This document shows, piece by piece, positions 7,576 to 40,738 of a stretch of 52,095 nucleotides of DNA (position 1 is the first letter of the stretch; each line of letters opens with the position of its first letter). Source of the stretch: a virus; IMG/VR virus record IMGVR_UViG_3300030118_002480, positions 1-52,095 of that record; one strand, given 5' to 3'. A program made the translations under genes and the position numbers. The notes beneath the pieces were generated by a model, which was not told the DNA's origin, made no database searches, and saw only the letters and a program-made list of their open reading frames with translations.

Positions 7576-7771
7576 AGTAGTAAAATTAGCTTTTAAATTA
7601 TTAGTGAAAAAGTTTAAATTAGACAAATTAGAAGCAGTCTATACGTATGTATTTGAAGATAACGAATTAGACAAAGCTGTTAAAGCTAATACAAAAGAAA
7701 TTGAAAAAATTAAAGAAAGAATGATGCCTGGACATGCTCCAGTTAAAGAAAAAAAATGGTACGATAAATAA
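7565..7771 (+). CDS. Small basic helical protein
   Basis: 68 residues, Lys-rich and helical (VKLAFKLLVKKFKLDKL, then LDKAVKANTKEIEKIKERM), ending WYDK. It overlaps the previous gene by 11 nt and shares its stop A with the start of the giant nozzle-like gene. No family recognised. Confidence 0.5.
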   Translation: MVDKVVKLAFKLLVKKFKLDKLEAVYTYVFEDNELDKAVKANTKEIEKIKERMMPGHAPVKEKKWYDK

Positions 7772-13700: not shown

Positions 13701-13827
13701 TATAGTATCTCCTATACTTAAGTTTCCAGCAGGAACAAAGGGTAAAAATCTTAGTATTAGACTTACTGGGCAAAAAGGATATATTGATTCTATTGGTGTA
13801 GTTTACAAACCTAAAAGTATTAAATAA
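7771..13827 (+). CDS. Giant tail nozzle/hub-like protein
   Basis: 2018 residues. The start INKFTGGIVSTPSATDTDEQ, followed by a statement-like beta-rich domain, is typical of podoviral tail nozzle or hub proteins. Around residues 1440-1530 there is an Ig/Fn3-like segment (YYYKLAYEYDD to VTGIAVYRKF). From about 1568 to 1690 there are beta-propeller-like blades (GYLFVTKAFHP, SFNSRLYVWGQNALYKLD, YGLCFMDKNNVYIHDG), the hallmark of this class. The middle (about 350-1430) is a very large unrecognised insertion, probably additional beta domains. The family is usually 600-900 residues, so this one is more than twice normal length. It is coupled to both neighbours by one-base overlaps. Confidence 0.65.
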   Translation: MPKRLIEINKFTGGIVSTPSATDTDEQSAKYSLNIDPQTSDGRLQSIDSDKYLTSDGFASTGTKLTVQYVREMITVPDKNNKTSLNLVIGRNSSLGNDFIDTISIVKDLYGKNIALQDLNDSSLSSITSEYDFQSNDDKVFIGLGGSPSSSSKVVMTPSGTTINGQDKGGIDLFDAELFPPNATSFSSMFSEFTTFPIHGNTVGTKNLAQDDSDTPLSVIYPDYDKAVTINSGVTLYKTLNQDAAVPNSGILAGLKVGQIFKCADDTDTLDDALLAWKRYDYDMYASAIAAHDLFMFCGYLNEGSYVDVPVLRFIGNAATQTAAFTYAIKDESSSLYKISLTTTVDATAFPTSSNTDIVKDSLGADYTIKNVGSRITSIDLSSLSNWQGGYISAFSACSSPPLYNSIGLASEGRDPHETNGEIYYNNGHLKILYRHGIFYIGNKNQTSAMYRLNAIDFHSLTDLGVKIEGIRLDFSRIPDQLHAEGGKGIVRRTIEDQLLNPPEDPARHTWSNIPQNAEIIGICETFDCGQITKITPETGSNTYSNVFGYKITGGSGGQHRLTSGDKVRFAGMTISADSHSVVTSSALEDFNVSAPYEVSVVEEGQAFWINSGSASKIPEAHIGPNYRAAMWWNAKVWVLYGKKSNTASFDKWDLFLYNANTLEMDNSRNIYMADRTPPFQQARYYETTTKDSDEIGKIWYPGQFAFIKKDPTPGFSNAGTDDGEYEGQGLQIGDVALPGSFVGDESGDQDSGMFCEIAFYDKAGRWSSAGTKNVFPEDATNFDNPVDWVGGLDGPIATIGTQDSPYGHLNGALMIGNNIGWSTEENEHRQVKPLNNSLHPHVPYSTLYNSNLVYCGFNKFDSSSIGGANHEAVNYADYLYNGDGYSEPDDRLKNHNRPKHAVTFIGKVKGTFVAHPGIIQRTGILSTMFSHDRMDRAFEVNKNYPSKLKKYNDDYTLFTIDDFSGHSGSVIQDNGDLSMSLSNSNNDEKTPLGGVVTWRPNFGGPEIENPKFRQTTRIINGIEVGSLSSVNGGYGHSNPSDNDKGWDGYAPPCLFNPGSGYYVYINRSWQNMSEINARPLNPIFYANYTSNVTTCWGFNSTLDSVGRFNNFSSTCISDNVATHSRAIIKQNINDSNRYINMEAPAHESDGNSISTRFYHVPNNTYVAGSGEFNLTFRSMPSHAQSICTMHKLSISNEHAINNIFPVILNTNIATDQTAGGDFVPAYICGLTNEGTNDSGIAIIRTNFDYIWDKYANNLDSSVDGSFDQAILFTNHSEPSSESLPYRYALNRRGTHLAEIIDITDANTAYASTTDSLDGMQIKQINIDTYNDNVIGNKLVALSQKPLKGFTATSVIADADFDVWVQTNSEDGSSLFLGYEDNAYTRNVGSPLDEDLNGTFFSANSGKIFDSVNDSTILTTLTGGLDFANSAQGTSGNIVEGDYYYKLAYEYDDIYHSPLTSTSIKHTVSPTVAGEVFDYISVTVQLPSSIVTSIPKRVTGIAVYRKFEGGEDDAYSLVNIVKISDNWIYNSANDIYTKTIYDKDTLMGTYFANNGIDETLQNTSLNYGLSAVNQGYLFVTKAFHPNLSDVKNYIFRSQPDNFFTFNWIEDFVIMPEVPIAMVSFNSRLYVWGQNALYKLDPFSMLIEDTYEGVSIINKDSFVKTEYGLCFMDKNNVYIHDGNKPVAIADAILYSSNDSVVYNTTGTDGYIKLQQGYRELVEQTITNGHKPHITYSGKHNSFLVHLSNASTDGKTFAFNLNKRRWDLWDSPKPYAITSSKDSDIIIADTDNIYNYIDLKSEEFTDYNRRTWDWFSKDINFGTDTQDKVFRSIKFLGTPSIYETGNTIGVYDSSNSKTASVQAYVDNDLVDLTVKNKFYETINLGGTYLFSNLFDANPTVSTLHIKTQIQPNTSNGAGTQVNEGNQSFIRAGHLIKIQNEIMLVKSVTNYTSFTELFVERAVMGTTGEVHIGGVTQTIDIVSPILKFPAGTKGKNLSIRLTGQKGYIDSIGVVYKPKSIK

Positions 13828-22319: not shown

Positions 22320-25300
22320 ATGGCTGAGTTCCAACCACGATTGGATGAGCGTACTGTAAGAACATTAATTGATTCTTATAAAAAGAATCCAGACGCTTAT
22401 GCAAACCTTAAAGACACAATACAGCAACACGCTGACTATCACAATATACCTTTCTATAGCGGTGAATTTAGTATATCTGATGCATTAACAGACCTTGGCT
22501 CAGGGTTTATAGAAGGTTTTACTACATTAAAAGTAGGCGACACTCCAGACAACGAATACGAAGCAATCTTTAAAAACCTAGGGCATTTAGCTGGTTTTGC
22601 GCCTGGTATTATAGGAGCGCCATTAGGTGCTGCTGCTAAAGTATCTGCTAAGTTAGGACTTAAAACTACATCTCTTATGACGGCAGCTAATACTGCTCGT
22701 TCATTAAATAACAAATCTGTTCCTATGGCTGTTGCTAATTTTGCAACTAAACAAACAAAAAAAATTGTTAAACCATTTCTAAATCAAGGTAGACTGGCTA
22801 AAAATGATGCAGTAAGGACTGCTAGTAATTTTATATTAGGTGAAAGAGCTAGACATATAGCTGAAGGTGCATTTCATTTAGGAGCAGCATCAGCAGCATC
22901 AGCTTGGCAAGGTGGTGTTGATGAAATGATGGCTGCATTTGTAGGTGGTGCACAAGCTGGTGGTGTATTTAGAAGCATAGGTAACTTTGTTAATACTGGA
23001 AGTGAAGCTGGCAATAAAGTAGCTAAGACATTAGCGGGTTCATTGTTTATGGGATTACCTGCTACTATGAGAGGTGCAACTACACCCGAACAAGTATATG
23101 AGTATGTTATGGGTGCTTGGTTTGGTGGACAAGAACGACCATGGACTGTAGCTAAAGCACAAAAGTTTTCACAAAAATATGAAAAAGATGCACAAAAACC
23201 TGGCAACGAAGCATTGGTTGAAATATATGACCCTGCTAGACATCCTGAGTTTAGTAAATTACCACCTGAAGTACAAAAAGAAGTAGTTACTCAGTTTAAT
23301 CAAACTAGAGGAACTGTAGAAGAACAGGTTCAACGAACAGCTGCTAATGAATTACAAAGACAATTAAATATAGAAACAGAAAAACTATTAGAGCAAGAAG
23401 GTGTGCCTAAAGTAGAAGTTAAAACTGAGCCTACTAAAATAGTAGAGAAAGAAAAAGAAGTATTTGAGACTGGTAGTACAGAAGAAAGTAACGTAGGCGT
23501 AGAACCCACTATAGACCCAAAAATAGGTAATAAAGCTCAGAACATAGTTAGATTTGATATGCCTGATTTCTTTAAAGGTAAAGAATTAACATCTCAACAA
23601 AGATTAGACCAGACAGCTGAGATAACAACTAAGATGTCTAATATATTAGACAAATACGTTAGAGGTCCCAAAACTAATGAGTCATCGGATGCATTTAAAG
23701 AAGTGCAAGAGATGTTACAAAAAGATTATAAATATCAAATTAACAATTCTAATAGAGACCCAGAAAGAGTATTGCGTACAGAAGGTGATATAAGGCAGTT
23801 TATTACTCGATATAAAAACGACAAGGTTACAGAAGTACTTACGACAGATGGTAGCAATATATACTTTTTAACACAACAGAACGCTAAGAATTTAGCAGGT
23901 AATAAAAAAGTATTAACAGAGCCATTAAAAATAGCTGACCAAATATGGAAGAAGTTAACTGGTAAAGATGAGCGTGCGCATACGTTTCTTGACCATATAG
24001 TTGTAGAGGGTGAAAATGGTCAACGTGAAATATCATTACAGAAGCTTAAGCAGATGGAGTACGCAGAGTACGGCGGTGCAAAAGATTACTATAATTTAGT
24101 AGGCAGCACTATAAAAGAAATGAATAAAAAAGGTTATAGTTATTTTGGTGGTAAGGGTACTGCAGATAGGCTATACTTTATGAAACACCATCCTAAAAGC
24201 AACACCGCTGGTAATATGCGAACTATTATATCTCAATTTAAAGCATCAGATATTCGTGCGCTTAGAAATGATTTTAAGAAAAAATATAATTTAACTCAAG
24301 CTGAGTTTGACAGGGGATTTGCATCTAATGTATTATGGCAGTTAGAAATGAATGGTTTAGAGTTTACACCTGCTAATATTAAAAAGATGCAAGGCGATGG
24401 GTTTTTAAAGAATGCAATAGCATTTAATAAAAGACTACCACTATTAATGACAGATGCATATTCTGCTGAAAAAGAGTTTTTTACTAACAAACAAAGCCCT
24501 GGGTACATAGCTGATTTAGTAGAGGGTAATTTTAGATACAATATTATACCTGATTTTGGTCAAAACTTATCTAAACGTTTACAAGATAAAATGAAAGAAG
24601 CAGCTAAGTTTTCAGACATAGAATCTACTAAAACAGAAGAACATCTTGATGGAGCTATCATAGCTAGAGACGATGTAGTAAAAGCCTTGAATTTAGAAAA
24701 AGGTACGCCTGAGTCTGGTACCAATAAATCATTAATAGTATCTCCTAATGCTGAACACGGTGCATTGCTTGGTAAATATGCAATACACCCAGCAGGACCT
24801 AAGTTATCAGCAGAAATGAAAGATGCTAATATACATATGAATATTATGGCATCTGCTGTTAAACAAAAAGGCACAAGAGAGTTTTATGAAGTATATGATT
24901 TAGACCCTACACATATCAAACAAGATTTAGGCATAAAGCAAAGTAAAAAGTTTATTGCACCGCAAAGTATCAAGAAACAAATGCTTACTAATTTAGTAGA
25001 AGCTATGGCGTTTCAAAAAGCATCTAAGGATGGTTTTACTGTTAAAGAAGCAGTTGATGGTATATTTAAAGATTTTATGGAACCACGTATTAAAGGTGAT
25101 GCAAAAGCTAATGAAGCATTAGATGCGTATTTAGAAAAACTTCCCACAGCATCAGATAAACAATTAGCTAAAGAACTAGATAAGTTAGACTTTGATGCTA
25201 TTGGGCTAGAACGTATAACAGATGCAATGAAACAACCTGGCAATCAATTGTTTTCTAAGGCATTTTATAACTATTTATTGTTAAATAGAAAATCTGCTAT

Positions 25301-28300
25301 AAGAGAAGAGTATGCTGAAGGTGTAATGACAGAAGCAGAATACGATGCAAATAATAGGGAAGTTGAGTATTATCATTCTGTTGCACAAAAGATGATATCA
25401 GCTGCACGTAAAGACGCTATTAGACGTGGTAAACCAGAGAATGAAGCTAACATATTTACGCATCCAGATATAAACAAATATAGAGATAAGATGATGTCTA
25501 GCTGGATAGTAAACTCTGTTACTAAACCAAAGGTTAAAAACTCTGCTGCAGCTATTATTAGACCATACGATGAAGGATTACAGAAAGATTTAGATGGCGT
25601 TAATCCTAGATTAAAAGAATTAAATACAAATTCTAAAATATTCTTCCTTGGAGATAAACATAAAAAGAAAATTGTTGAAACAGAGCTATATGGAGAGAAA
25701 ACACTCGAAGAGCTATATAACACGTACTTAAGTAAAAGTACTCCAGAATCGGCTAAAAAACGGCTAGAAGAGGTTTTTAGGACTGCAGTTATAAGAGTTC
25801 CAGCAGATTCTAACTCTGGTACACAGATACTGCAGTTTGCTGGATTTACTGGTAGAAATGACTATGGCATACTAATGCATGGGTTAAAAATGAGAGCGTT
25901 AGGTGGTGCTGACCTTGATATTGATTCTGCGTATATGTATTTTGGTGGTAAAGGTGGATTGAAAAAAGAATACAAAGATGTAATGGAAGCTCAAGAACAA
26001 GAGTTTTATGTTAAACAGAAAGATGGTAGATTTAAAATAGCTGATAACAAAGCTAAAGAGTTTGAGAAAAAGCTTATACAAGAATATAGCCCAAGAGAAG
26101 ACGCGTTATTTAAAAGTCAGGCTGGTATGTTTGCGCCTAATATGCGACATCAAGCATCAGAAGGTGCTGTAGAAGGTAGAGGACTTCTTGGTGGAGCTGC
26201 TGTTAATCCTAAAAACATTATGGCATCTGCATATCAAATGATACTTAATAAAGGTAAAGATGAATTTACTGTTAAGCATTTTGGTAAAGATGTAAAAGTA
26301 ACTCTTACCCCTAAAACTAAACCTCAAGAAATAGATTACGCAAATAAACTAATGCGTGCTACTGTTGGATTTGCATCTGATGCTATGGATTATGGTAAGC
26401 CTAAAGGTTATGAGAATTGGTATAAACAAGCATTAGAAGCTCACTTTACTGTTAAATCAAAAGTGCCATTAGCTAAGCTAAATGTTTCAGAGTTTAATAA
26501 AAATGGCGTTATTGGTATGCTAAGTAAAGCTAATAATGCATACTATGGCAAAGATTATACAAATCAACGTCAATATACTATGGAAGATAGAAAGAATCTT
26601 ACAGCAGAACTTATGGCTGAAGACCCAAAGAATATTACTACTATGACGCCTAAAATAGCTAGGTTATTGCATAATATAGATTACTCTGACCACGCATTAA
26701 ATAGGGTAAAATTTGATAGAATAACAGATTTATATAATAACTATAACAAAAGTGTAGCTGAGTATAGTTCTTTAAAAGGTATGTTAGGAAGAAGAACATT
26801 AAAAACACCTACTCCTACAGTAATTAATAAAGTGTATAAATACAATTTATTAAACCCTGATGCATTAGTTGCAGCTGCTAAAAACAAAGCTACCTTTTAC
26901 GATGTTATAAAAGGAACTAAGTTTGCTACATTTAAAAAGGCAAAAAATAAACTTTACACAGAACAAGAACGCATTGCTGTATTAGAACGATTAAAAGAAC
27001 AGGCTGGTGATTTTTCTGGTAGAGACATACAAACAATGGTTACTGTACAAGAACTTGTAAAAATTATAGATGTTGTAAAGAAAAGAGTTCCTGGTATTAC
27101 AAAAGCTGAAGTAAATGCAATGATAAAAGATGCGCATACTACAGTAGAAAAATTAAAAGCAGAATCATATTTAATGAGAGATGATAGGAATAGTTTAGAT
27201 GCTGAGCTTGATAGTGGAAGACAAAGAAAGTCTAAAGGCTCATCTATTAAAGACCAAAATGCTATTGATGCAGAAATAAGAAAATGGAAACGTAATAGAA
27301 CTGACATAGAAAAAAGATTGTTTGATACATTAATGTTAGGTTCATTGAATCGTGGTAATCCTGAAAGGTTAGCAGAACTAAACGCAATTAAACTAGAAAG
27401 ACCTTTAACTAATAAAGAACAAAGAGAATATAATACAGAGCTTACAAATACAGCAAGAACGTCATCATCTATGCTGGGATACAACAGCGAAGCTATGGAA
27501 ACTAATTCTATTGGAAAGTTTTTAGGTGAAATAAACAATACATACAACGAAGTATCTACTCATCGTGCACCAGAACAAATACGAAAAGAAGGAACTATAC
27601 TATTAGAAGAACCTACTAAAAAAGAAAGCATTGAAAAAGGATGGCCTGAGGAATCTGATGCTAAACTAACAGAAGTATTTACTACTGGATGGGAAGGCGT
27701 TAAAGAAGCTAAAGGCAAAACTAAATTAGATGCTGAGACTAAAGGGTATATTGATGACATTGTAATGGATTTAAAAACAGAAAACAATAAAGTAGTACAA
27801 AACATTGGGTTCATTGCACGTGAAGTTGTAGGCAAAGACATAAATATATTTAATAAACAAGATTGGATGGTACTTCGCAATTGGCTTAGAGACACTAAGA
27901 CTGGTACTTTTTGGCAACGATTAAAAGGTGAGGATATTAGCAAAGTATCACAGCGTACATACTTACAGTTTCCTGAAACGATTAATAAAGAATTAATGCG
28001 AGATGAAATAGTTCTGATGCAAAAGAAGGGTATATTTATGACAGCAGAAGGTATGAAGACTGGTAAGTCTATACTACCTACTCAGTACATGGACATTACT
28101 CAATATAGAATTAAAAGCGTGTTAGATGCAGCAGACGCAGCAAATGAACAGCTATCTTTAGAACGAGTAAAAGAATATACGTTTTTAGATGCTATACCTG
28201 AAGGCAGACAATTATGGGAAGTAGCTATGGTTAAACGAGAACTTCCTATGGCAGAAAAGATTTTAACAGATGTAAGTAAAAAAGATAAGCCTCTTGCTAT

Positions 28301-30740
28301 GTTCCACGCCAAGACATATACAGATGCTTTTAATGAAATTACCAAAAAACATAAATACGAATCTGATTTAAAAGATAAAGTTTATACTGTTGAAATAGAT
28401 AAAAAACTGCAAAAGTTAAAAGGCTCTGAAATTGTTGATATTATTAACAATAAAGAAACAGCGTATTATAAAAAAGAACTAGAGATTGCACAGGGTAATG
28501 TCCCTAAAGATGCTTCTGGTGATTTAAAAGTAATAGGAACAACTGCAGATGGTCAACCATTATATGCATTACAAAAAGCTATAGAGTTTGGTGTTCCTGG
28601 ATTTACATCTGGTCCTAAAAATAGTGGTTACGTTAAAGGATTCTACGACCCTAAAACTAAACAGAATCCAATTATTAACTTTGAAAAACTTGTAAACGAT
28701 TTCAATAGAGCTGTAGCTAAAAACAAAAAAATACCAACAGAATTTGGTATTGATGGTATAAATACTATAGCTAGGTCAATGAAATATGAAATAGCTACTA
28801 ATACTAAAAAGCTAAACAAAAAAGAATTAAAAGAAATGTATGAAACATTTCCATCTAGAACTGGTAGAATATCAGAAGAAATGTATTTTCCGCACAATCA
28901 TTTTAGTAAAAAGACTGCACTTAACGCACTTAAGGAATATGTAAAATATATACGCAAAAGCAGTTTAGATGTTAAAGAGCAAGATAAGTTAATAACTAAA
29001 TTAACATACAGACACCACGCATTGACTGGTGATTATATGTTTGAAGCTATTAATACTTGGGAAGGATTTAATAAAAGTTTAGAAAACATAGGTAAACGTA
29101 AACAGAAAAAAGAAGAGCGTATAAGTTGGTTGCAAGATATAAAGAAAACTGGTTCTCAACTTAGTAGAGAAGGTCATATACCTGGATATTCATTAGACAT
29201 ACAAGTTCCCACAGGTTATGGTAAAAGTTTAAATAATACATACTACAAACAATGGGCTCAAATACTTGCAAGAGATACTATATCTAAGTTTGAACAATCA
29301 ATGTTTGATAGAAAAGTACCAGAAAACATTAAAGAATCGTGGTCTACATTTTTAAAGCTTTATGTGCAAGGTGCTATAGGCAACCCTGATGTGGTCCCTG
29401 AGTATGTTTATGAGAATCCTAATATGAAAATAAAAGGTACACCTTATGGATGGTGGGCTGATAATAGAGTTAAGGATAGGCTTAATAAAATAGGCGACAA
29501 ATTAGGATTAATTAAGAAAGAATTACCTGAAGAACTTAGAGGTTTAGATTTAAATGATGTACGTAACTGGAGTAACCTAGAAGCTAAGTTTGAGTTAGCA
29601 TCGTTATTAGCACACCCTAAATCTGTTGTTGCTAATATCTTTGGTGGTACTATGCATACTGTACAATCTGTTGGTATGAAGACTTGGATGGATGCTAGAA
29701 ACAATAAGTATATGGCTGCACTTAGTGATAAGTTTGCATCTAAGGAAGCTAGAGAAGCGTTTGTAATTAAACAAGGCGTACTACCTGAGCAATTACTTGA
29801 GGAATATGGTTTAGCAACAGAATATCAATCATCTCGTAATAAAGAATTTATTGAACTTGTTGCACGTAAACTTAAGCGTGACCCTAATCTATCTAGCGAA
29901 TCTGTTTTAGATTTAGGTAAAGAAAAAGGTATCACAAGACCCGTTACAGAATTAGCAGCTAAGTTTATGTCTGTACCAGAAAGAGCATTAAGAAGAGATG
30001 CATTCATGGCACATTATTTATTTTGGTATAAAAAATTTAATGGTGCTATTAGAGAGTTTGACCACCCTATATTAATAGATTTAGCTAAAAAAGGAGTTAA
30101 ATCTACTCAGTTTTTATATTCTGCTCCATTTAGACCTATGTTTGCTAGAACAGCACTAGGTAAAGTAATGACACGTTTCCAGCTTTGGGGCTGGAATGCT
30201 ATACGTTTTAGAAGAGAAGCATTAAGACAAGCTAGATTATATGGTTTTAAAGGTAAAGAAGCAGAACGTGTGGCAAGAATAATGCAATTAGACCTATTTG
30301 TATTCTCATTAGGTAATGCTTTTGCATATTCATTATTTGATACAGCAATGCCATCGCCATGGAACTGGATGCAAGATACTAGTGAATGGTTGTTTGGTGA
30401 TGAAAAAGATAAGAAAAGAGCGTTCTTCGGTCAATGGCCACAGCCAATTGCACCATTACAGCTAATTACTCCACCAATAGCACGACTGCCAATGGCATCT
30501 ATGAGAGCTGTATTAGAAGATGATTGGGAGCGAGTAGCTAACTACTACGTACACACTATGTATCCATTTGGAAGAATATCTAGAGATTTTGTTGCTCAAA
30601 ACAACTTAATAGAAAACCCAATGTCACTTGTAGATAAGTGGACAGGCATACCATTAATAGGATTAAGTAGAGCGTCTAAAGAATTAAGGGAAGGTGAAGA
30701 AAGAAAAGTCCCAACACCTGGGTCAGGACTTACTTTCTGA
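22320..30740 (+). CDS. Giant ejection-type protein with putative double-psi beta-barrel RNA polymerase core
   Basis: 2806 residues. The N-terminus (1-350) has helical hydrophobic segments like ejection proteins. In the middle two polymerase-like signatures occur in the right order: a DG pair (D777-G778, LDGAII) with a SAVKQKG segment containing K848, and an R1159-V-P followed about 37 residues later by GGADLDIDSAYMY, with D1198, D1200 and D1202. Known family knowledge: one-chain QDE-1/YonO/crAss-like RNA polymerases carry a beta-type barrel with a catalytic Lys and a beta'-type barrel with DxDxD; the crAss-phage enzyme has DFDID. The C-terminus (about 2595-2720) is hydrophobic again. Inferred role: packaged RNA polymerase delivered with the DNA. 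No ribosome site is obvious before the ATG. Ends 18 nt inside the convergent minus-strand gene. Confidence 0.65.
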   Translation: MAEFQPRLDERTVRTLIDSYKKNPDAYANLKDTIQQHADYHNIPFYSGEFSISDALTDLGSGFIEGFTTLKVGDTPDNEYEAIFKNLGHLAGFAPGIIGAPLGAAAKVSAKLGLKTTSLMTAANTARSLNNKSVPMAVANFATKQTKKIVKPFLNQGRLAKNDAVRTASNFILGERARHIAEGAFHLGAASAASAWQGGVDEMMAAFVGGAQAGGVFRSIGNFVNTGSEAGNKVAKTLAGSLFMGLPATMRGATTPEQVYEYVMGAWFGGQERPWTVAKAQKFSQKYEKDAQKPGNEALVEIYDPARHPEFSKLPPEVQKEVVTQFNQTRGTVEEQVQRTAANELQRQLNIETEKLLEQEGVPKVEVKTEPTKIVEKEKEVFETGSTEESNVGVEPTIDPKIGNKAQNIVRFDMPDFFKGKELTSQQRLDQTAEITTKMSNILDKYVRGPKTNESSDAFKEVQEMLQKDYKYQINNSNRDPERVLRTEGDIRQFITRYKNDKVTEVLTTDGSNIYFLTQQNAKNLAGNKKVLTEPLKIADQIWKKLTGKDERAHTFLDHIVVEGENGQREISLQKLKQMEYAEYGGAKDYYNLVGSTIKEMNKKGYSYFGGKGTADRLYFMKHHPKSNTAGNMRTIISQFKASDIRALRNDFKKKYNLTQAEFDRGFASNVLWQLEMNGLEFTPANIKKMQGDGFLKNAIAFNKRLPLLMTDAYSAEKEFFTNKQSPGYIADLVEGNFRYNIIPDFGQNLSKRLQDKMKEAAKFSDIESTKTEEHLDGAIIARDDVVKALNLEKGTPESGTNKSLIVSPNAEHGALLGKYAIHPAGPKLSAEMKDANIHMNIMASAVKQKGTREFYEVYDLDPTHIKQDLGIKQSKKFIAPQSIKKQMLTNLVEAMAFQKASKDGFTVKEAVDGIFKDFMEPRIKGDAKANEALDAYLEKLPTASDKQLAKELDKLDFDAIGLERITDAMKQPGNQLFSKAFYNYLLLNRKSAIREEYAEGVMTEAEYDANNREVEYYHSVAQKMISAARKDAIRRGKPENEANIFTHPDINKYRDKMMSSWIVNSVTKPKVKNSAAAIIRPYDEGLQKDLDGVNPRLKELNTNSKIFFLGDKHKKKIVETELYGEKTLEELYNTYLSKSTPESAKKRLEEVFRTAVIRVPADSNSGTQILQFAGFTGRNDYGILMHGLKMRALGGADLDIDSAYMYFGGKGGLKKEYKDVMEAQEQEFYVKQKDGRFKIADNKAKEFEKKLIQEYSPREDALFKSQAGMFAPNMRHQASEGAVEGRGLLGGAAVNPKNIMASAYQMILNKGKDEFTVKHFGKDVKVTLTPKTKPQEIDYANKLMRATVGFASDAMDYGKPKGYENWYKQALEAHFTVKSKVPLAKLNVSEFNKNGVIGMLSKANNAYYGKDYTNQRQYTMEDRKNLTAELMAEDPKNITTMTPKIARLLHNIDYSDHALNRVKFDRITDLYNNYNKSVAEYSSLKGMLGRRTLKTPTPTVINKVYKYNLLNPDALVAAAKNKATFYDVIKGTKFATFKKAKNKLYTEQERIAVLERLKEQAGDFSGRDIQTMVTVQELVKIIDVVKKRVPGITKAEVNAMIKDAHTTVEKLKAESYLMRDDRNSLDAELDSGRQRKSKGSSIKDQNAIDAEIRKWKRNRTDIEKRLFDTLMLGSLNRGNPERLAELNAIKLERPLTNKEQREYNTELTNTARTSSSMLGYNSEAMETNSIGKFLGEINNTYNEVSTHRAPEQIRKEGTILLEEPTKKESIEKGWPEESDAKLTEVFTTGWEGVKEAKGKTKLDAETKGYIDDIVMDLKTENNKVVQNIGFIAREVVGKDINIFNKQDWMVLRNWLRDTKTGTFWQRLKGEDISKVSQRTYLQFPETINKELMRDEIVLMQKKGIFMTAEGMKTGKSILPTQYMDITQYRIKSVLDAADAANEQLSLERVKEYTFLDAIPEGRQLWEVAMVKRELPMAEKILTDVSKKDKPLAMFHAKTYTDAFNEITKKHKYESDLKDKVYTVEIDKKLQKLKGSEIVDIINNKETAYYKKELEIAQGNVPKDASGDLKVIGTTADGQPLYALQKAIEFGVPGFTSGPKNSGYVKGFYDPKTKQNPIINFEKLVNDFNRAVAKNKKIPTEFGIDGINTIARSMKYEIATNTKKLNKKELKEMYETFPSRTGRISEEMYFPHNHFSKKTALNALKEYVKYIRKSSLDVKEQDKLITKLTYRHHALTGDYMFEAINTWEGFNKSLENIGKRKQKKEERISWLQDIKKTGSQLSREGHIPGYSLDIQVPTGYGKSLNNTYYKQWAQILARDTISKFEQSMFDRKVPENIKESWSTFLKLYVQGAIGNPDVVPEYVYENPNMKIKGTPYGWWADNRVKDRLNKIGDKLGLIKKELPEELRGLDLNDVRNWSNLEAKFELASLLAHPKSVVANIFGGTMHTVQSVGMKTWMDARNNKYMAALSDKFASKEAREAFVIKQGVLPEQLLEEYGLATEYQSSRNKEFIELVARKLKRDPNLSSESVLDLGKEKGITRPVTELAAKFMSVPERALRRDAFMAHYLFWYKKFNGAIREFDHPILIDLAKKGVKSTQFLYSAPFRPMFARTALGKVMTRFQLWGWNAIRFRREALRQARLYGFKGKEAERVARIMQLDLFVFSLGNAFAYSLFDTAMPSPWNWMQDTSEWLFGDEKDKKRAFFGQWPQPIAPLQLITPPIARLPMASMRAVLEDDWERVANYYVHTMYPFGRISRDFVAQNNLIENPMSLVDKWTGIPLIGLSRASKELREGEERKVPTPGSGLTF

Positions 30741-33856: not shown

Positions 33857-34037
33857 GCCAACCCAATTTGCTTCTCACAGCTAGCGTAAGATTTGTTTCT
33901 AGTTTCCATAGCCCTAAAATTAATGATGATGCTTTACCTGTTTCATCATTAATCCATGCTACGCCTATTCTAAACGTTTTAAATAGCTCTATCATAGCTA
34001 AATTATCGTCTAGTATTATTGTTATAAACCATCCCAT
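33837..34037 (-). CDS. Small hypothetical protein
   Basis: 66 residues, mixed alpha/beta, starting MGWFITIILDDN. No membrane span long enough to be certain and no known motif. The ATG overlaps the stop of the primase-helicase (TAATGG) and uses the ribosome site AAGGAGAG inside that gene. Function unknown. Confidence 0.5.
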   Translation of the reverse strand: MGWFITIILDDNLAMIELFKTFRIGVAWINDETGKASSLILGLWKLETNLTLAVRSKLGWHEAGQA

Positions 34038-35803
34038 TAGACTCTCCTTAATCTAAAACTTTCACGCCATTCTACATCTACATCAAATAATTCACCATCA
34101 GTATTTTTGTACATATGAATTTCTTTAATATTAGAATCAGCTTGACCATTAAGACCAATCACTTTACGTGATGCATTCTCAATAGCACCTGAACCTTTAC
34201 CTGCATACAGGTCTAAGACTTCATTTCTACTGTATTCCCTACTGACTTGTGATACTTGTATAATAATAACGTCTAGATTTACAGCCATATTAGATAAGTT
34301 ATGAGATATGTATTTAATTTGTTCATATTCTCCTTTAACATCTTTTGGCGTATCTACCAAATCAATATAATCAACAACAACAAGATATGGATTTAATTCT
34401 TTTATCTTGTCTTGTATTGATGTTAGAGTTGGCGTTACTGTTTGTATATGCAAATGCTGCAGTTCATCAGAATGTTTTTTGTATACTTCTTTGTAATTAG
34501 CATTAACTTGTTCTTTTGATAAACCAGATACAATTTGCAAATGACGTCTGTGCATATACCATGCTGAAAGTTCTAAAGATAAAAACAATGTTGGTATTTG
34601 CCATTGTTTGTTTATTCTATCGTTTTTAAAATCTACACCCAATGCAAGATTTTGCGCTAATGTAGTTTTGTTAGACCCTGTTGGACCGAATATAGTAACA
34701 AGCTCTCCTGGATATATTTGAGTATCATATCCCTTTAAATCAAACATATCTGATAAAGGTACAGTTCTACCTTGGAAGTTTGTTTCTAATCGTTCTTCGT
34801 ATTCTTTTTGTAATGTGCTAGAATCTTTAACATCAATATGATAATTTTTGTTTTTAAAGTAAATACATTTTGTTTGACAATGTTCTTTCATTACAGAATC
34901 ATGACAACTGTATCTGTAGTTTCCATTGTAAACAGATTCTATTTTTTGTATTACTGATTCTTCATTCATCATATTGTTATTCCAATGCAATATCATTACT
35001 TTTGCATAGTCACTAGGAACACCATTTCTTTTGAGATAACTAGCTATCCTAAGTAAGGTATTGTGCCTAGAGCCTTGTATTGGGCCATTTCTAAGCATTG
35101 TTTGCACACAAGGTACTATCTTCGTGGGCTCACTAACTTTGCTTTGTTGGCGTATTTTAGGGACATCTAGGCATATATAGCCTTCTAGCTCATTATCACC
35201 ATCTAATAATTCATATGGATATTCAAAACGAGGGTCTTTAGCCAAGTCGTGTATCTGTTGATAAGTATAGTTTAGTGCTTCATGTAATGTAATAGGTATT
35301 TTATATAGGTTTGTCTTTTGATTTTTAGTGTGAGAAACTCTATATATTCCACTTCTCATATATATACTACTATCTATATCTTCAAACAGATTTGACATTG
35401 TTTGTTTGACTTGATAGGGCAGGCTATCACTAGCTTGGAAATTGAATACTTTATTTGTTATGACGATATGATAACCAGTACCACTAAAATAACATTGTAT
35501 ACTCTCATCTAATACTTCTAAAGTATTTAAATGGAGCAGGGTATTACGCAATTGTTTTAGTGTGTATTCATCTGAGTTGTCTTTTCTATCTATATCAATA
35601 AGTATATTGTCAATACCACGCTTACCGTGATAGCCTTTTAACGTCCTATGTGAATTAGCATATTCTTTTGCATCATCACCGTAGAGATAAACAGAGCGAT
35701 ATAATGGGCTACCATCTTTAGGAAGATAATATCCAAGCTCGCTGCGCAACACTAGGTTACCCCGATTATTAGGGCTTCCAACTGCTATCTCTACATAGTT
35801 CAT
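34037..35803 (-). CDS. Primase-helicase fusion (AEP/prim-pol plus DnaB-like)
   Basis: 588 residues. N-terminal archaeo-eukaryotic-type primase: D70-x-D72 (LIDIDRKD), SGTGYH at 107-112, and GIYRVSHTKNQKTNLYKIP at 152-170. A PriCT-like helical segment follows (about 244-276), then a Cys/His cluster (C300, H301, C309, C313). The C-terminus is a DnaB-family helicase: P-loop GPTGSNKTT at 373-381, Walker B YLVVVDYID ending at 481, then IIQVSQVSREYSR. It primes and unwinds DNA for phage replication. The P-loop has Asn in place of the usual last Gly. Start ATGA overlaps the SSB-like stop. Confidence 0.85.
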   Translation of the reverse strand: MNYVEIAVGSPNNRGNLVLRSELGYYLPKDGSPLYRSVYLYGDDAKEYANSHRTLKGYHGKRGIDNILIDIDRKDNSDEYTLKQLRNTLLHLNTLEVLDESIQCYFSGTGYHIVITNKVFNFQASDSLPYQVKQTMSNLFEDIDSSIYMRSGIYRVSHTKNQKTNLYKIPITLHEALNYTYQQIHDLAKDPRFEYPYELLDGDNELEGYICLDVPKIRQQSKVSEPTKIVPCVQTMLRNGPIQGSRHNTLLRIASYLKRNGVPSDYAKVMILHWNNNMMNEESVIQKIESVYNGNYRYSCHDSVMKEHCQTKCIYFKNKNYHIDVKDSSTLQKEYEERLETNFQGRTVPLSDMFDLKGYDTQIYPGELVTIFGPTGSNKTTLAQNLALGVDFKNDRINKQWQIPTLFLSLELSAWYMHRRHLQIVSGLSKEQVNANYKEVYKKHSDELQHLHIQTVTPTLTSIQDKIKELNPYLVVVDYIDLVDTPKDVKGEYEQIKYISHNLSNMAVNLDVIIIQVSQVSREYSRNEVLDLYAGKGSGAIENASRKVIGLNGQADSNIKEIHMYKNTDGELFDVDVEWRESFRLRRV

Positions 35804-36408
35804 AGATTAGCTAGCGCATTGTCAGCCAAGTTAGTTTGTCCTTTTGGAGCAAAATCATCTTGACTAGCCTCTTTTAGATATCCATTTTCTTTTAACCATT
35901 TAATATCTTTATCACATTGCATTCTACCACCTTCTGTATTTAGCCATAGTTTTGGCCACATTTCTGTGTACACTTTATCTCCTGGCTTTTTAGGTTTCTT
36001 TTTGTATGCGTATGCAATAAACTCTTGATTTGTAGTTTTGAAATTATTATTCAAATGTTCTGCAATATTAGTAATTTCATTGCCATTTTCGTCTTCCCAT
36101 TTTTTATCAATAGTAAGACCACCTTTAAATCCAATCATTTCAAAGATATTGTACATTCTTTTAAGTACACTACCTCCTACAATTTTACCCTCACTATCTT
36201 TATCTAGTCTGCCTAATAAAGACATTTTGTTGGTGTATTCGCTACCCTTAACAGATAATTCTATTTCTAAGAATATTTCAGCCCAATCTTGTCCTGGGAA
36301 ATCACCACTTCTATCTTTAAAACCTACTGGTCCTACTTCTATTGCACCTAAGTATGAAGACTTAGGAGTTGTTGTTGTACTTGTTGTTTCTGGTTTGAAT
36401 ATAGCCAT
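35800..36408 (-). CDS. Putative single-stranded DNA-binding protein
   Basis: 202 residues. A Thr-rich disordered N-terminus, then a beta-rich body (IEVGPVGFKDR, WAEIFLEIELSVKG) that resembles an OB-fold, and a Gln/Asn-rich tail. It lacks the acidic DDIPF-type tail of bacterial SSB. The ATG is immediately after the stop of the Sak4-like gene, with AGGAGG 8 nt upstream, and it overlaps the primase-helicase start by 4 nt. Placement between recombinase and helicase is typical of phage SSB or annealing proteins. Confidence 0.55.
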   Translation of the reverse strand: MAIFKPETTSTTTTPKSSYLGAIEVGPVGFKDRSGDFPGQDWAEIFLEIELSVKGSEYTNKMSLLGRLDKDSEGKIVGGSVLKRMYNIFEMIGFKGGLTIDKKWEDENGNEITNIAEHLNNNFKTTNQEFIAYAYKKKPKKPGDKVYTEMWPKLWLNTEGGRMQCDKDIKWLKENGYLKEASQDDFAPKGQTNLADNALANL

Positions 36409-37083
36409 TTATTTAGCCTCCTTATATATATTTTTCCATTCAAATTTAACTTCTTTACCTTTTAGATGAGGACATCTACTACCTGCTTCTATGCTATCAT
36501 TAGCTTTAAAAGATACCATTAGGTTTTCTTTGTCATCACGATATACATAGCCAATAGCATCACAGCCAGCCATAATAACATTCTTTAGTTTACCTGTCAA
36601 ATCAAGAGATTCTGGTATTACTATAGGGTTACCTTCTGTTACTGCATACGCTACTTTTCTATGTCCAATGATGATAAGATGTTCTGCTACTTCTTTGAAA
36701 TGTGAAATAGTTTTAGCTACCTTTTCACGTACAAGTCCATAGCCTTTACCAAATGCTAAATCAGCAATAGAGTTTACGCCTTCTTCTTCGCATACTCTGC
36801 GTTCAGCCCACTCTGCGACCTTATCAATTGTATCAATAGCTATATATTTATACTTTACATCATTACTTTCTTTAATAGCTATCAATGTTTCAATTAATTC
36901 ATCTCTACTATTTACTTCTTGTATGTAACCTTCAATCATACGACTACCTTTTTCTGTATCTATTATTAGACAATCATCTAAATTAGATAGCATAGTAGTT
37001 TTACCAACTTTAGGTGCTCCATACAATAATAAAGTAGATGGATTTACAGAGACAGCTTTTCTCTTTACTTTTGTTAGTTTCAT
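36409..37083 (-). CDS. Sak4-like RecA-fold ATPase
   Basis: 224 residues with a P-loop GAPKVGKTT (22-30), an adjacent LIIDTEKGSRMIEG strand with acidic residue, Walker B-like YIAIDTIDK and IIIGHRK sensor-like strand. This matches the Sak4/AAA_24 type of phage recombinases, which cooperate with SSB in single-strand annealing recombination. Here the SSB-like gene follows directly. Ribosome site AAGGA lies 8 nt before the ATG. It follows the E1-like gene after a 73-nt gap with a stem-loop, so it is probably in the same transcript. Confidence 0.8.
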   Translation of the reverse strand: MKLTKVKRKAVSVNPSTLLLYGAPKVGKTTMLSNLDDCLIIDTEKGSRMIEGYIQEVNSRDELIETLIAIKESNDVKYKYIAIDTIDKVAEWAERRVCEEEGVNSIADLAFGKGYGLVREKVAKTISHFKEVAEHLIIIGHRKVAYAVTEGNPIVIPESLDLTGKLKNVIMAGCDAIGYVYRDDKENLMVSFKANDSIEAGSRCPHLKGKEVKFEWKNIYKEAK

Positions 37084-37156: not shown

Positions 37157-37828
37157 TCAGGCTGGGAAACAAGTATTTTTTTGTATTGTCATTGTAGGGA
37201 AGTTAAAAGTCAACATTGTTTCGTAAGGACTATTTGTAACTACTTTCCTAATAGCGTTTACAATCATACTACCAGCCATATTTGAGCAATAACTTGATGC
37301 TTTGACATTGCATGGTTCTGCATCACCTTCATCGTCAGAATACCATGTTTTTAGATATTTATTTAATGTCAAGTCTTTAAACAAATATTGCTGGTAATGT
37401 TCACCACCCATCCTACCATCTATCAACAAAAATGGTTTAGTTTGTTTGTTTGAACATATTTCTTGAACTGCATGTTTTCTAGATTTCATACTATCAAAAC
37501 CTAATATTACAATATCATTATTATTTTGATATCGAAACATGTTAAAATATTCTGGTGATTGTATTATTTCTAAATTTCTACAATTAATACTCATCAGATG
37601 TTCTTCCAATGCTTCAGTTTTTAACATGCCAATATGCTCATCCATATACTGAGATACGCCAATGTTTTCTGTTGCTACTTTGTCCATATCGTACAACACA
37701 AAGTTTTTAGCACCACATCGTAATAACTGAGTGGCTGCAGAGCTACCTATAGCTCCGCAACCTAGTATATGAAAAGTATATTCATGTAAAGTGTTTACTA
37801 AACCTTCGCTTCTCATGTTTATACCCAT
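37157..37828 (-). CDS. E1-like ubiquitin-activating enzyme, ThiF family
   Basis: 223 residues with a Rossmann ATP site GCGAIG (23-28), then D47-x-D49, N55-x4-Q60 and K70, D112 in LGFDS, and an IDGR strand: the ThiF/MoeB/E1 adenylation fold. The classical NLxRQ is altered to NIGVSQ, so the usual Arg is missing. Likely catalytic Cys candidates are C173 (AEPC) and C181 (SSYC) before the conserved helix NMAGSMIVNAI. It would adenylate the C-terminal Gly of a ubiquitin-like protein and pass it on as a thioester. Its start lies inside the end of the JAB gene, so the two are coupled. Last of the four conjugation genes. Confidence 0.92.
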   Translation of the reverse strand: MGINMRSEGLVNTLHEYTFHILGCGAIGSSAATQLLRCGAKNFVLYDMDKVATENIGVSQYMDEHIGMLKTEALEEHLMSINCRNLEIIQSPEYFNMFRYQNNNDIVILGFDSMKSRKHAVQEICSNKQTKPFLLIDGRMGGEHYQQYLFKDLTLNKYLKTWYSDDEGDAEPCNVKASSYCSNMAGSMIVNAIRKVVTNSPYETMLTFNFPTMTIQKNTCFPA

Positions 37829-38787
37829 CCATAACCTCCATAGTTTGTTTGATAGTTAGTTAATCTAGCATCATCATATGATTTTTCTACAGCTTCGTTA
37901 TCATATTTTAAATGTTCCCAAGGTTGCATAGTCATAGCTTTTTCAAGTACACTACCTTGTGGTAATATATTTACTTTAACTTTTGCATTCCTTGATTTTA
38001 AGTCCTTGTTTAACATTTTGATTCTACTAGAATATTCTTTATAATCTATAGTACCTTGACAAAACTCATCTATCACATCTGATATTGCTTCATCTAATGA
38101 TTCAATAAGTTCTGCATAAACAGATAAAGATTCTCCTTGAACCCATTTTAGTTTCTTGTTCGCATCAGGGTCTAATGCATCTTCTGTTTTATTATTGTAC
38201 CACATATTCATTTGACTGCGTGGAGTATATCCTTTTGTATGCCAGCCTGTATGAATAACTTCTGTTTTATTAGAACAGAGTTCATTATACTCTTTAAGCT
38301 GTTTCTTTGTTGCTTTAGGAATATCTCTTACAATCTCTAATGGTACATCTTCAGAAAACTCTATTGGTTTCCACACAGATACATTTAGTTTGTATTCTCC
38401 AAACAGATTGATAACAAGTGCAAGTGACCATGAGTCATTCTTCCATGCTTTTATTTCTTTATCGTCTGTTCCTGACCAGAATGCACCCATTGTATGATGT
38501 GAATGCCACCAACAAAACTTTATGTCTGTTCCGTATTTCATGCCAGCTTTGACCTGGTAATCTCGCAATGCTTCACCATCAAGCTCTGTTGTTGTTCCTG
38601 AATTTTCTTGTTTTAAGATAACTGGGTCAAATAACTCATACACAGTCTCGTTTGACACAGGATGTTTAGTTAATCTGTATGGTATCAACCCAGATATCTC
38701 GTTTTTGTCTTTGTCATATGCAATGCCTGCATATTGTTGCATGGTATTCCATGCTTTCTCTTTAATAATAAAGTTAGGTCTACTCAT
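37819..38787 (-). CDS. JAB/JAMM metallopeptidase (deubiquitinase-like)
   Basis: 322 residues. The N-terminal half is a JAB domain with a perfect JAMM motif: E30 (NEISGL), H95-S-H97, seven residues, S105, two residues, D108 (HSHHTMGAFWSGTDD). These bind zinc and cleave iso- or peptide bonds after ubiquitin-like Gly-Gly. The C-terminal half (about 160-322) is helical and unfamiliar, perhaps a substrate-binding part. It overlaps the E2-like gene by 8 nt and the E1 gene by 10 nt, with its AGGAGG site in the last codons of the E2-like gene. In this context it may mature the ubiquitin-like protein (removing the IK tail) or remove it from targets. Confidence 0.92.
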   Translation of the reverse strand: MSRPNFIIKEKAWNTMQQYAGIAYDKDKNEISGLIPYRLTKHPVSNETVYELFDPVILKQENSGTTTELDGEALRDYQVKAGMKYGTDIKFCWWHSHHTMGAFWSGTDDKEIKAWKNDSWSLALVINLFGEYKLNVSVWKPIEFSEDVPLEIVRDIPKATKKQLKEYNELCSNKTEVIHTGWHTKGYTPRSQMNMWYNNKTEDALDPDANKKLKWVQGESLSVYAELIESLDEAISDVIDEFCQGTIDYKEYSSRIKMLNKDLKSRNAKVKVNILPQGSVLEKAMTMQPWEHLKYDNEAVEKSYDDARLTNYQTNYGGYGWV

Positions 38788-40402
38788 TTATACCTCCTGA
38801 GGCTGCTAATTGTTCTTCCCATTGTGATATTTTAGCTTGCATTGCTGCAATATCAGGGTTATTATCAGTTTTTATTGGGGCTTCACCCCAGTAATTAGTT
38901 TCATCTGAGTACTTTAATTGCTCTAATTGGTCCCACAAGTTTTCAGGTCTTACAGAATCATTTATAGACATTAATATTGATTCTAGGTCTTGAAACTCAT
39001 AGCCTACATCAAACTCATTACTATTGTCGTTAATAAGAAAATTACCTACTATTTCTTCTACCATATACTGCGCATTTGAATCAAGATATGACTTAAGATT
39101 CTGATATCCAGTGCAAACACTTCGTGTTGGACAATTTTTACTATCATATTCTTCAACAATATATCTTGCATATGGAGAGTAATTTCTAGTTATTCTTTCG
39201 TTCCAATCTTTTTGAACACTATCTAGTTCTGTCATTACGTGTTTAAAGTATTTAGCGCGAAAGAACTCGTGTAAGCTAATATTAAGAGCTGTTCTTATTC
39301 TATGTAGTTCATCTTCATTTTCAACTTCTGGGAATGTGCCATAAGTCATAACTTGTGTGATTTCAGCGTATGGATTAGTTGCATCTTTGTTGTAAATATT
39401 ATTCCAATTCATAATACCCATAACAAAAGACATGTAATCATTTTTGTATAACGCACGTTCTATATCATCAGTATAACTAGATAAACATAATGTGCTCCAT
39501 GCATATCTTTCCATAGTCGGATGATTTAGCCTTCGGTATGGTATTGCATTAATGTATGGATGTTTACCGTGCATAACAGCTGCAGTATACTGTAAAGGAT
39601 ATCTGTTACCACCATTTAGTGCTTTGTACAATGGTCTATGAAACTTAAGATAACATTCAGGTACTCTCATTTTACATATCTCTTCGTTTCTGTTGTTAAT
39701 GATAGTCATATCTTTTGGCTTGCAATGTACAATTGTATATAATTGAATATCAGTGTGCTGTTCATTTATTTGAATGTAATTATATACTTTGTAATAATCA
39801 GACATAGCATTAGCTTGATTTGTACTTTCTATAATATTATCATAAGCTGTTCGTTGGCTTTCAATAATACTTTCAATACTACTATCAAGTGTTATTTCTG
39901 CTGCTTTAGCTCTATTGCGATAAGTATCGAGGCGTGACATTTGTCTTTGTAGTTGGTCGTATATCCATCTATTATCTTGTATTCTATTGAATATACTAGA
40001 CATTCCTGATGGTCTCATGTTAAATCTGTGAGCTTTTGTAATTGCATCTTTAACAATATCATAACAACCTTTTTTCCAAGCATAAGATTTAGTAACATCA
40101 ATTTTATCTGTTATTTCAAGAGCATCATACAACCATGTATTTGTTGTTTGCAGTTCTTCTTTAAACGCTATTATATCTTGCATTCCTGTATTATTTGCAA
40201 ACTGTTCTGCATCTACATTATCCCACAATGTATCAATATTAAGAATATCTATCCACAATGGTCGGTCCAATGAATCATATCGTGGTGGCCTAATAAACTT
40301 AATACGCGCTCCTGTTTCTGTAAATTCTACAGGAGATTTACTACACTCTACGATATTTTTATTGATTGTTGGACTTGAGTTAAAATCTAATAACAAATTC
40401 AT
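38780..40402 (-). CDS. Putative E2-like conjugating enzyme in a long multidomain protein
   Basis: 540 residues, no strong known domain by eye. Residues about 150-200 are helical, coiled-coil-like. Residues about 205-340 have E2-like features in order: beta strands (YNYIQINEQ, LYTIVHCKP), H281-P282-Y283-I284 (resembling the HPN motif), then C306 in STLCLSS and a following helix ending MNWNNIYN. The HP-to-Cys spacing is longer than in classical E2 (about 22 versus 8-10 residues). The rest (340-540) is helical. Its place between the ubiquitin-like and JAB genes is the place of BilB in BilABCD. The E2 call depends mainly on that context. Clear ribosome site AAAGGAG before the ATG. Confidence 0.5.
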   Translation of the reverse strand: MNLLLDFNSSPTINKNIVECSKSPVEFTETGARIKFIRPPRYDSLDRPLWIDILNIDTLWDNVDAEQFANNTGMQDIIAFKEELQTTNTWLYDALEITDKIDVTKSYAWKKGCYDIVKDAITKAHRFNMRPSGMSSIFNRIQDNRWIYDQLQRQMSRLDTYRNRAKAAEITLDSSIESIIESQRTAYDNIIESTNQANAMSDYYKVYNYIQINEQHTDIQLYTIVHCKPKDMTIINNRNEEICKMRVPECYLKFHRPLYKALNGGNRYPLQYTAAVMHGKHPYINAIPYRRLNHPTMERYAWSTLCLSSYTDDIERALYKNDYMSFVMGIMNWNNIYNKDATNPYAEITQVMTYGTFPEVENEDELHRIRTALNISLHEFFRAKYFKHVMTELDSVQKDWNERITRNYSPYARYIVEEYDSKNCPTRSVCTGYQNLKSYLDSNAQYMVEEIVGNFLINDNSNEFDVGYEFQDLESILMSINDSVRPENLWDQLEQLKYSDETNYWGEAPIKTDNNPDIAAMQAKISQWEEQLAASGGINE

Positions 40403-40419
40403 AGTTCTCCTTTATTTTA

Positions 40420-40443
40420 TAAGGGGGACCGAAGCCCCCCTTA
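40420..40443 (-). terminator. UUCG-capped hairpin between the Ubl and E2-like genes
   Basis: On the minus strand TAAGGGGGGC-TTCG-GTCCCCCTTA makes a 10-bp stem with one G-U pair and a C(UUCG)G loop, 26 nt after the stop of the ubiquitin-like gene and before the E2-like ribosome site. A T-run is missing, so partial termination or 3'-end stabilisation is likely. This would let the ubiquitin-like protein be made in excess over the enzymes. Confidence 0.6.
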
Positions 40444-40468
40444 ATTATTATTTACTTGTTAGGATACA

Positions 40469-40738
40469 TTACTTTATGCCTCCTGTTTTATTGTTAGCTA
40501 CCCAGCCGATACATAATGGTCTAGTTGTACCATCATCATTTAGCTCGTTAACTGGCATCGCAGATGAATTATCTGTATACAATTGGTCTTGAACATTTAC
40601 TGTAGCTTCATTAGGTATATCTAATGCTATTCTTAGTTCGCCAATAGTATTTGCTACGATTGTTTTAGTAGACCAGCTACCGTTTTCACTTACACTTACT
40701 GTTCTTTCACCGCTAGGTGCACTTGTTGCGTTTGCCAT
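40469..40738 (-). CDS. Putative ubiquitin-like protein with C-terminal TGG-IK
   Basis: 89 residues. After a 12-residue flexible start, a beta-grasp order is visible: strand RTVSVSE, strand STKTIVAN, helix TIGELRIALDI, strand ATVNVQDQ, and last strand CIGWVANNKTGG. It ends Gly86-Gly87-Ile88-Lys89. Ubiquitin-like proteins need an exposed C-terminal Gly-Gly, so a two-residue trim by the JAB enzyme is the natural prediction. Ribosome site AAGGAG, 7 nt before ATG. It is first in the conjugation cassette. A caution: the codons for GG form AGGAGG, which could also be a ribosome site. The family is not proven. Confidence 0.62.
   Translation of the reverse strand: MANATSAPSGERTVSVSENGSWSTKTIVANTIGELRIALDIPNEATVNVQDQLYTDNSSAMPVNELNDDGTTRPLCIGWVANNKTGGIK

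Follow-up and report, generated by a model that had tools for sequence, protein, structure and literature searches.

Comparative analysis of the IMG/VR record IMGVR_UViG_3300030118_002480, an uncultured tailed phage of 52,095 bases that encodes terminase, portal, and major head proteins (the whole stretch is hereafter the window), revealed a cassette of four minus-strand genes at positions 37157-40738 that probably encodes a phage-owned, reversible ubiquitin-like protein conjugation system. The genes lie in the early replication block in the order ubiquitin-like protein (Ubl), E2-like protein, JAB protease, and E1/ThiF-like enzyme. An earlier note made from the sequence had proposed such a phage-borne cassette, and this was supported by linkage of the genes in relatives and by invariant active sites; the four open reading frames (ORFs) were confirmed where it had placed them, with KTGG-IK at the Ubl end, HPYI and C306 in the E2-like protein, a full JAMM motif in the JAB, and GxGxxG and C173 in the E1. 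Bacterial Ubl conjugation is known as a host defense (Bil, CBASS) and from uncharacterized mobile-element operons. A complete phage-owned system, held constant in the replication operons of a widespread group of phages and also carried by cultured Crassvirales, would, if true, reverse the usual direction, with the phage modifying its host or itself, and would represent a viral Ubl system that is neither hijacked nor host-defensive. The features of the cassette are as follows.

40469-40738, minus strand: Ubl of 89 residues, predicted beta-grasp-type modifier precursor ending ANNKTGG-IK (ORF; K-x-GG in homologues; ThiS matches among relatives)
40478-40483, minus strand: codons of the invariant Gly86-Gly87, with the tail Ile-Lys codons next at 40472-40477
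38780-40402, minus strand: E2-like protein of 540 residues (ORF; AlphaFold2 (AF2) model; invariant C306)
39368-39802, minus strand: E2-like core with beta-meander, HPYI...C loop, and helices (DSSP of the AF2 model)
39557-39562, minus strand: His281-Pro282 of the HPYI motif (H in 63/80 and P in 77/80 sequences)
39485-39487, minus strand: Cys306 codon, predicted thioester cysteine (80/80)
37819-38787, minus strand: JAB/JAMM metalloprotease of 322 residues (Prok-JAB match; JAMM residues; hhalign to crAss JAB)
38464-38505, minus strand: JAMM core H95-S-H97-x7-S105-x2-D108, with the E30 codon at 38698-38700
37157-37828, minus strand: E1/ThiF-like activating enzyme of 223 residues with a single adenylation domain (Pfam ThiF)
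37745-37762, minus strand: nucleotide-binding loop GCGAIG, residues 23-28 (GxGxxG), conserved in the alignment
37310-37312, minus strand: Cys173 codon, predicted E1 catalytic cysteine (EPCNVK; 110/110)

All four are real genes. Each was preceded by a purine-rich ribosome binding site (TAAGGAG, AAAGGAG, CAGGAGG, and TGGAGG for the ORFs of 89, 540, 322, and 223 residues, respectively), and codon position 3 held most of the differences from relatives, which together with conservation ruled out broken or chance ORFs. The E2-like and JAB ORFs overlapped by 8 nt and the JAB and E1 ORFs by 10 nt.

Conservation of the Gene Block

Relatives were collected from viral contigs using the JAB, E2-like, Ubl, and E1 proteins as baits, and linkage was counted over distinct loci that contained an E1 and extended 4.5 kb or more upstream, with genes called by hidden Markov model (HMM). 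All four genes were present in 52/53 loci, and complete sets were co-linear on one strand as Ubl, E2-like, JAB, and E1 in 66/66 cases. The exception was a clade (L097, L098, and L103: 1754-5069) in which 3.3 kb of inserted small genes, one of them encoding a Cys-rich 239-residue protein, separated the E2-like gene from the JAB gene. The primase-helicase was used as a second bait to avoid bait bias, and among contigs reaching more than 2.3 kb upstream the E1 was identified in 57/57 and the JAB in most. Conserved linkage in relatives, which the earlier note had set as a test, was therefore found by both counts. In primase-helicase contigs with at least 6.5 kb upstream, 10/25 were without E2-like and Ubl genes by these HMMs; those of the ten that were inspected or matched by motif carried a divergent protein at the E2 position, preceded, in those whose sequence was read, by a beta-grasp-like small gene. 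In 82/98 loci, the next gene after the E1 was that of a Sak4 or ERF recombinase.

The same four-gene order was identified in the Crassvirales (crAss001 gp79-78-77-76, cr85, cr106, cr111, cr128, and DAC17), adjoining primase and uracil-DNA glycosylase genes, and in Flavobacterium phage FpV4 beside a uracil-DNA glycosylase gene. The crAss001 and FpV4 blocks resembled the window cassette in the JAB (95% by hhalign) and the E1 (27-31% identical), and in crAss001 gp78 displayed HSHV...PCTG at the E2 position and gp79 was beta-grasp-like, ending KIKSG. They differed in that the Ubl end is SG followed by another domain and in that the E1 often has an N-terminal extension. By eye, the domain after KIKSG in gp79-type Ubls (L018:4259-4936, L019:3680-4883) appeared to be a small helical DNA-binding domain of HeH/SAP-like type, and cr106_1 has an HNH endonuclease gene between the two gp79-type parts, just past KSG. 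The crAss and FpV4 genes are annotated merely as thiamine biosynthesis, metalloprotease, or hypothetical, such that the conjugation reading would give a function to the crAss genes labeled thiamine biosynthesis and metalloprotease; the main text of a crAss comparative paper contains no mention of ThiF, JAB, or ubiquitin (PMC7886860).

Two contigs from metagenome-assembled genomes (MAGs) also encoded the Ubl, E2, JAB, and E1 in this order, one from Methanosarcinaceae (L169; E2 with HPNI..ICWG) and one from Planctomycetes (L170; E2 with HPHV..GETLC plus a Cys-rich region), and both cassettes may be mobile elements. The long Cys-rich region fused to the L170 E2 was RING/treble-clef-like in look. 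A Prok-E2_B search of three MAGs gave no match, although none was obtained in control genomes either.

The Predicted Ubiquitin-Like Modifier and the JAB Protease

The C-terminal K-x-GG was present in 66/66 distinct core Ubl homologues compared to 5/1948 other small ORFs with the motif near the C-terminus. The protein stops exactly at GG in 25/66 core Ubls, and the remainder have 1 to 60 extra residues of non-conserved sequence. K-x-GG plus a variable tail is the signature that would be expected of a modifier precursor. As a Lys is conserved before x-G-G, a trypsin digest would mark target lysines with a distinct TGG (or VGG) remnant, rendering substrates readable by proteomics. In distant clades, the Ubl end was K-x-[ES]-x-SG-like (KVKSGK, KQESGT, and TKSGD), resembling the KIKSG of crAss gp79. 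A beta-grasp fold for the window Ubl is suggested by family matches of its homologues: 6/36 Ubl relatives matched ThiS, with L071 passing the Pfam cut-off (22.6 versus 22.5 bits) and the other five weaker. In the family-model scans, the window sequences of the Ubl and the 540-residue protein themselves matched no family, and a PDB profile search with the Ubl alignment returned chance-level matches only. In some relatives, the Ubl and E2-like genes are separated by one with a radical-SAM-like CxxxCxYC motif (L127:1576-2436, L131:1071-1946).

The window JAB was recognizable by Pfam Prok-JAB (E = 9e-4) but below the cut-off. The JAMM residues E30, H95, H97, S105, and D108 were invariant in 101/101 JABs, including where the Ubl of the lineage already ends at GG. 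This invariance where no trimming is needed argues that the JAB would also deconjugate and that conjugates probably exist.

The E1-Like Enzyme and a Sulfur-Carrier Alternative

The window E1 passed the cut-off of Pfam ThiF (E = 3e-20). The motif-based JAB and E1 calls of the earlier note held for the E1 and for the full JAMM motif, while the JAB family match fell short. Across 110 E1 sequences, including crAss, archaeal, and planctomycete representatives, the residues R6, the GxGxxG loop, D47, D49, N55, K70, D112, R117, and C173 were invariant, a single gap aside. Either C173 or C181 had been suggested as the catalytic cysteine, and C173 is the better candidate because C181 is not invariant (106/110); the EPCNVK context of C173 resembles the CT motif found at the catalytic cysteines of E1 enzymes. 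The E1 frame of one relative (L007:4164-4835) was interrupted into pieces of 142 and 40 residues by a sequencing error or real decay.

The Ubl and E1 belong to the same domain families as ThiS and ThiF and were closest to them by family models, raising the alternative of a sulfur-carrier pathway in which the E1 would adenylate the Ubl and turn its end into a thiocarboxylate for nucleobase or cofactor thiolation and the JAB would recycle or trim the carrier as in JAB/CysO-type pathways. The replication context could suit thiolation of nucleotides or DNA. Nevertheless, this alternative appears improbable, as an E2 is not needed in such a pathway and here, in contrast to ThiS/ThiF, E2-like and JAB genes are consistently linked, with the E2-like protein and its invariant Cys always encoded between the Ubl and the JAB. 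In addition, neither Pfam sulfur-transfer domains (rhodanese, cysteine desulfurase, or thiolase) nor thiamine or sulfur neighbor genes were found among the window proteins scanned, the E1 sequence is without the MoeB/ThiF-type CxxC zinc pairs, and the best NCBIfam ThiF model scored 78 bits versus a cut-off of 159, below equivalog level.

The E2-Like Protein

The AF2 model of the 540-residue protein, built from a 78-sequence alignment, was confident (predicted local distance difference test (pLDDT) 85.7, predicted template modeling score (pTM) 0.77) and consisted of a helical N-terminal region, an E2-like core (about residues 201-345), and a helical C-terminal region. The modeled core elements were a helix (176-200), five strands (204-211, 220-227, 230-235, 241-247, and 250-257), a loop with HPYI (281-284) and C306, and two helices (308-319 and 323-335). 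Helix, beta-meander, HP-C loop, and helices is the element order of UBC/RWD folds. The core was the best conserved part of the protein among relatives and C306 was invariant. The motif HP[HNYF][ILVM]...C[x][GDSA] was identified in 63/90 E2 proteins, whereas shuffled sequences gave a mean of 0.1. Elsewhere in the loci, ORFs of 300 residues or more contained the HP...C motif only where they were themselves E2-position proteins. A motif continuum was displayed at this one gene position (HPYI..VCLD, HPFV..TCFG, HPHI..ACLG, and HPNI..ICWG), turning into the textbook HPH[IV]..ACxG in divergent relatives. One relative (L195) that matched the family HMM (9e-21) reads HPFV...GNTCFG, bridging to HPHI..ACLG and HPNI..ICWG. 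The E2-like core with an invariant Cys that had been anticipated was accordingly found in the model, the alignment, and the L195 match. A second cysteine in the C-terminal helical region, C424, was also invariant (80/80), usually within a multi-cysteine pattern (C-x5-C) that is perhaps a metal site.

Foldseek against viral models retrieved six near relatives first, followed by a 420-residue protein (E = 7e-4) of the same length as the FpV4 E2-position gene. Further matches included a 435-residue cr128_1 protein, equal in length to the E2-position gene of cr128_1, and a weak match (prob 0.47) to a phage protein labeled as the E2 domain of type II CBASS. Alternatively, the 540-residue protein could be another Cys enzyme or a scaffold, with the E1 transferring the Ubl directly and the JAB removing it. 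Archaeal SAMP/JAMM conjugation functions without a classical E2, and the 540-residue protein matched neither the known E2 family models nor any PDB structure. Such a role seems very improbable given that the invariant Cys follows an HP[HNYF][IV] motif confined to the E2 gene position, that the confident model contains the elements in the order above, and that the CBASS E2-domain protein was matched, albeit weakly. The E2 assignment was not proven by fold and is strongly supported by motif, position, and element order.

Proposed Conjugation Cycle and Its Role

In the conjugation reading favored here, the JAB would trim the Ubl tail after Gly87 (TGG/IK), and the E1 would adenylate the Ubl Gly and then bind the Ubl to Cys173 as a thioester. 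From the E1 the Ubl would pass to Cys306 of the E2-like protein, whose large, fast-changing helical regions may choose the substrate that receives the Ubl through an isopeptide bond, and the JAB would take the Ubl off again. Identity between the window and the relative L008 was 87% for the E1, 80% for the Ubl, 67% for the JAB, and 40% for the E2-like protein, which therefore diverges fastest; this divergence around a conserved core is compatible with changing substrates and a substrate-choosing part. The fixed place of the cassette beside recombinase, SSB, and primase-helicase genes makes early action on host or phage DNA-metabolism proteins most likely. It is an evenly balanced question whether large phage groups, including the human-gut crAss-like phages, possess their own Ubl conjugation and deconjugation cycle that is core to infection and modifies replication and recombination proteins.

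Several results weigh against the conjugation reading. For the window Ubl, AF2 modeling from an alignment of nine sequences failed and was uninformative (pLDDT 48), so that the fold behind the Ubl call of the earlier note is predicted from the ThiS matches of relatives. Foldseek of the whole 540-residue model against the PDB gave no match at E<=0.001, with the query dominated by non-core helices, and a PDB profile search with the E2-like alignment returned chance-level matches only. Profile-profile comparison of the E2-like family with crAss gp78, whole or core, was weak, with the two cysteines aligned. H281 is replaced by F or Y in 17/80 E2-like sequences. This E1 family as a whole has another residue in place of the Arg of the ATP motif NxxRQ (NIGVSQ at residues 55-60), which would be unusual for an active E1-like enzyme. 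Lastly, no E3 and no substrate were identified for the cassette.

A sub-case overlapping the conjugation reading is counter-defense or competitor exclusion, with the phage Ubl put on a defense protein or on structural proteins of a rival phage, likened to the tagging of incoming phage by Bil. In bacteria, the E1/E2/JAB systems of Bil and CBASS Cap2/Cap3 take part in conflicts with phages (PMC11354881; PMC10097602), and the fast divergence of the E2-like protein would fit an arms race. This role is nonetheless rather unlikely, since the cassette is a fixed core block (57/57) of the replication operon, favoring a core function, and anti-defense genes often sit in accessory regions. The more specific suggestion that the cassette counters Bil or CBASS was not sustained, as nothing found favors these over other targets.

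Relation to Known Systems

Operons of Ubl, E2, JAB, and E1 genes are a kind already known, including type 6d of Iyer, Burroughs and Aravind 2006 (PMC1779556). Type 6d shares four separate genes, a small stand-alone Ubl with a conserved C-terminal Gly, and a JAB adjacent to an E1-like enzyme without rhodanese (PMC1779556). The type 6d E2 has its His downstream rather than upstream, whereas in most members here the Cys comes after HP, and type 6d includes a fifth alpha-helical protein, whereas here long helical regions belong to the E2-like protein (PMC1779556). The carrier also differs, being a phage here.

The match to BilABCD proposed in the earlier note was retained for component types and the order Ubl-E2-JAB-E1, shared by the 66 co-linear loci, and was lost for the defining features of the proteins. 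BilA consists of two Ubl domains, BilD of inactive and active adenylation domains plus a Cys domain, and BilB has a CEHH motif (C, E+6, H+8, and H+13) (PMC11354881). In contrast, the Ubl here is a single domain (65-89 residues in most homologues), the E1 has one ThiF domain in 223 residues, and the window sequence C306-LSSYTDDIERALY is without E or H at those positions. In addition, Bil is host-encoded and this cassette is carried by a phage in its replication operon. Membership of BilABCD was rejected on the single Ubl, one-domain E1, and E2 without CEHH.

The PRTRC (ParB-related, ThiF-related) operons of mobile elements likewise join Ubl, E2-like, JAB, and ThiF proteins. Membership was rejected as matches were far below the NCBIfam cut-offs (PRTRC_ThiF to the E1, 26.4 versus 144.75 bits; PRTRC_A to the JAB, 14.7 versus 101.8 bits), and the other NCBIfam PRTRC models had no match to the cassette proteins. 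No ParB-like gene was noticed among the cassette neighbors, for which no dedicated search was made. CBASS Cap2/Cap3 is similar in its E1, E2, and JAB chemistry, by which Ubl-like conjugation is reversible. Cap2 is a fused E1-E2 that conjugates cGAS, whereas here the genes are separate with a dedicated Ubl and no cGAS-like gene; the PADLOC E1-E2 models matched through their E1 domain only, and CBASS type II was rejected on this architecture. The literature searched, of partial coverage, contained no description of a complete phage-encoded cassette fixed in the replication operon, and the phage-encoded form in this position appears to be a new variant.

Genomic Context

Downstream of the cassette, the neighboring replication genes in the window were as follows.

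36409-37083, minus strand: Sak4-like recombinase, directly downstream of the E1 (phrog_124, 6e-34)
35800-36408, minus strand: SSB-position protein, assigned by position and conservation only, without a family match
34037-35803, minus strand: primase-helicase, the independent linkage bait (PriCT_1, DnaB_C)

Elsewhere in the window, two very long ORFs without a Pfam match, of 2806 and 2018 residues, were located at 22320-30740 and 7771-13827, respectively.

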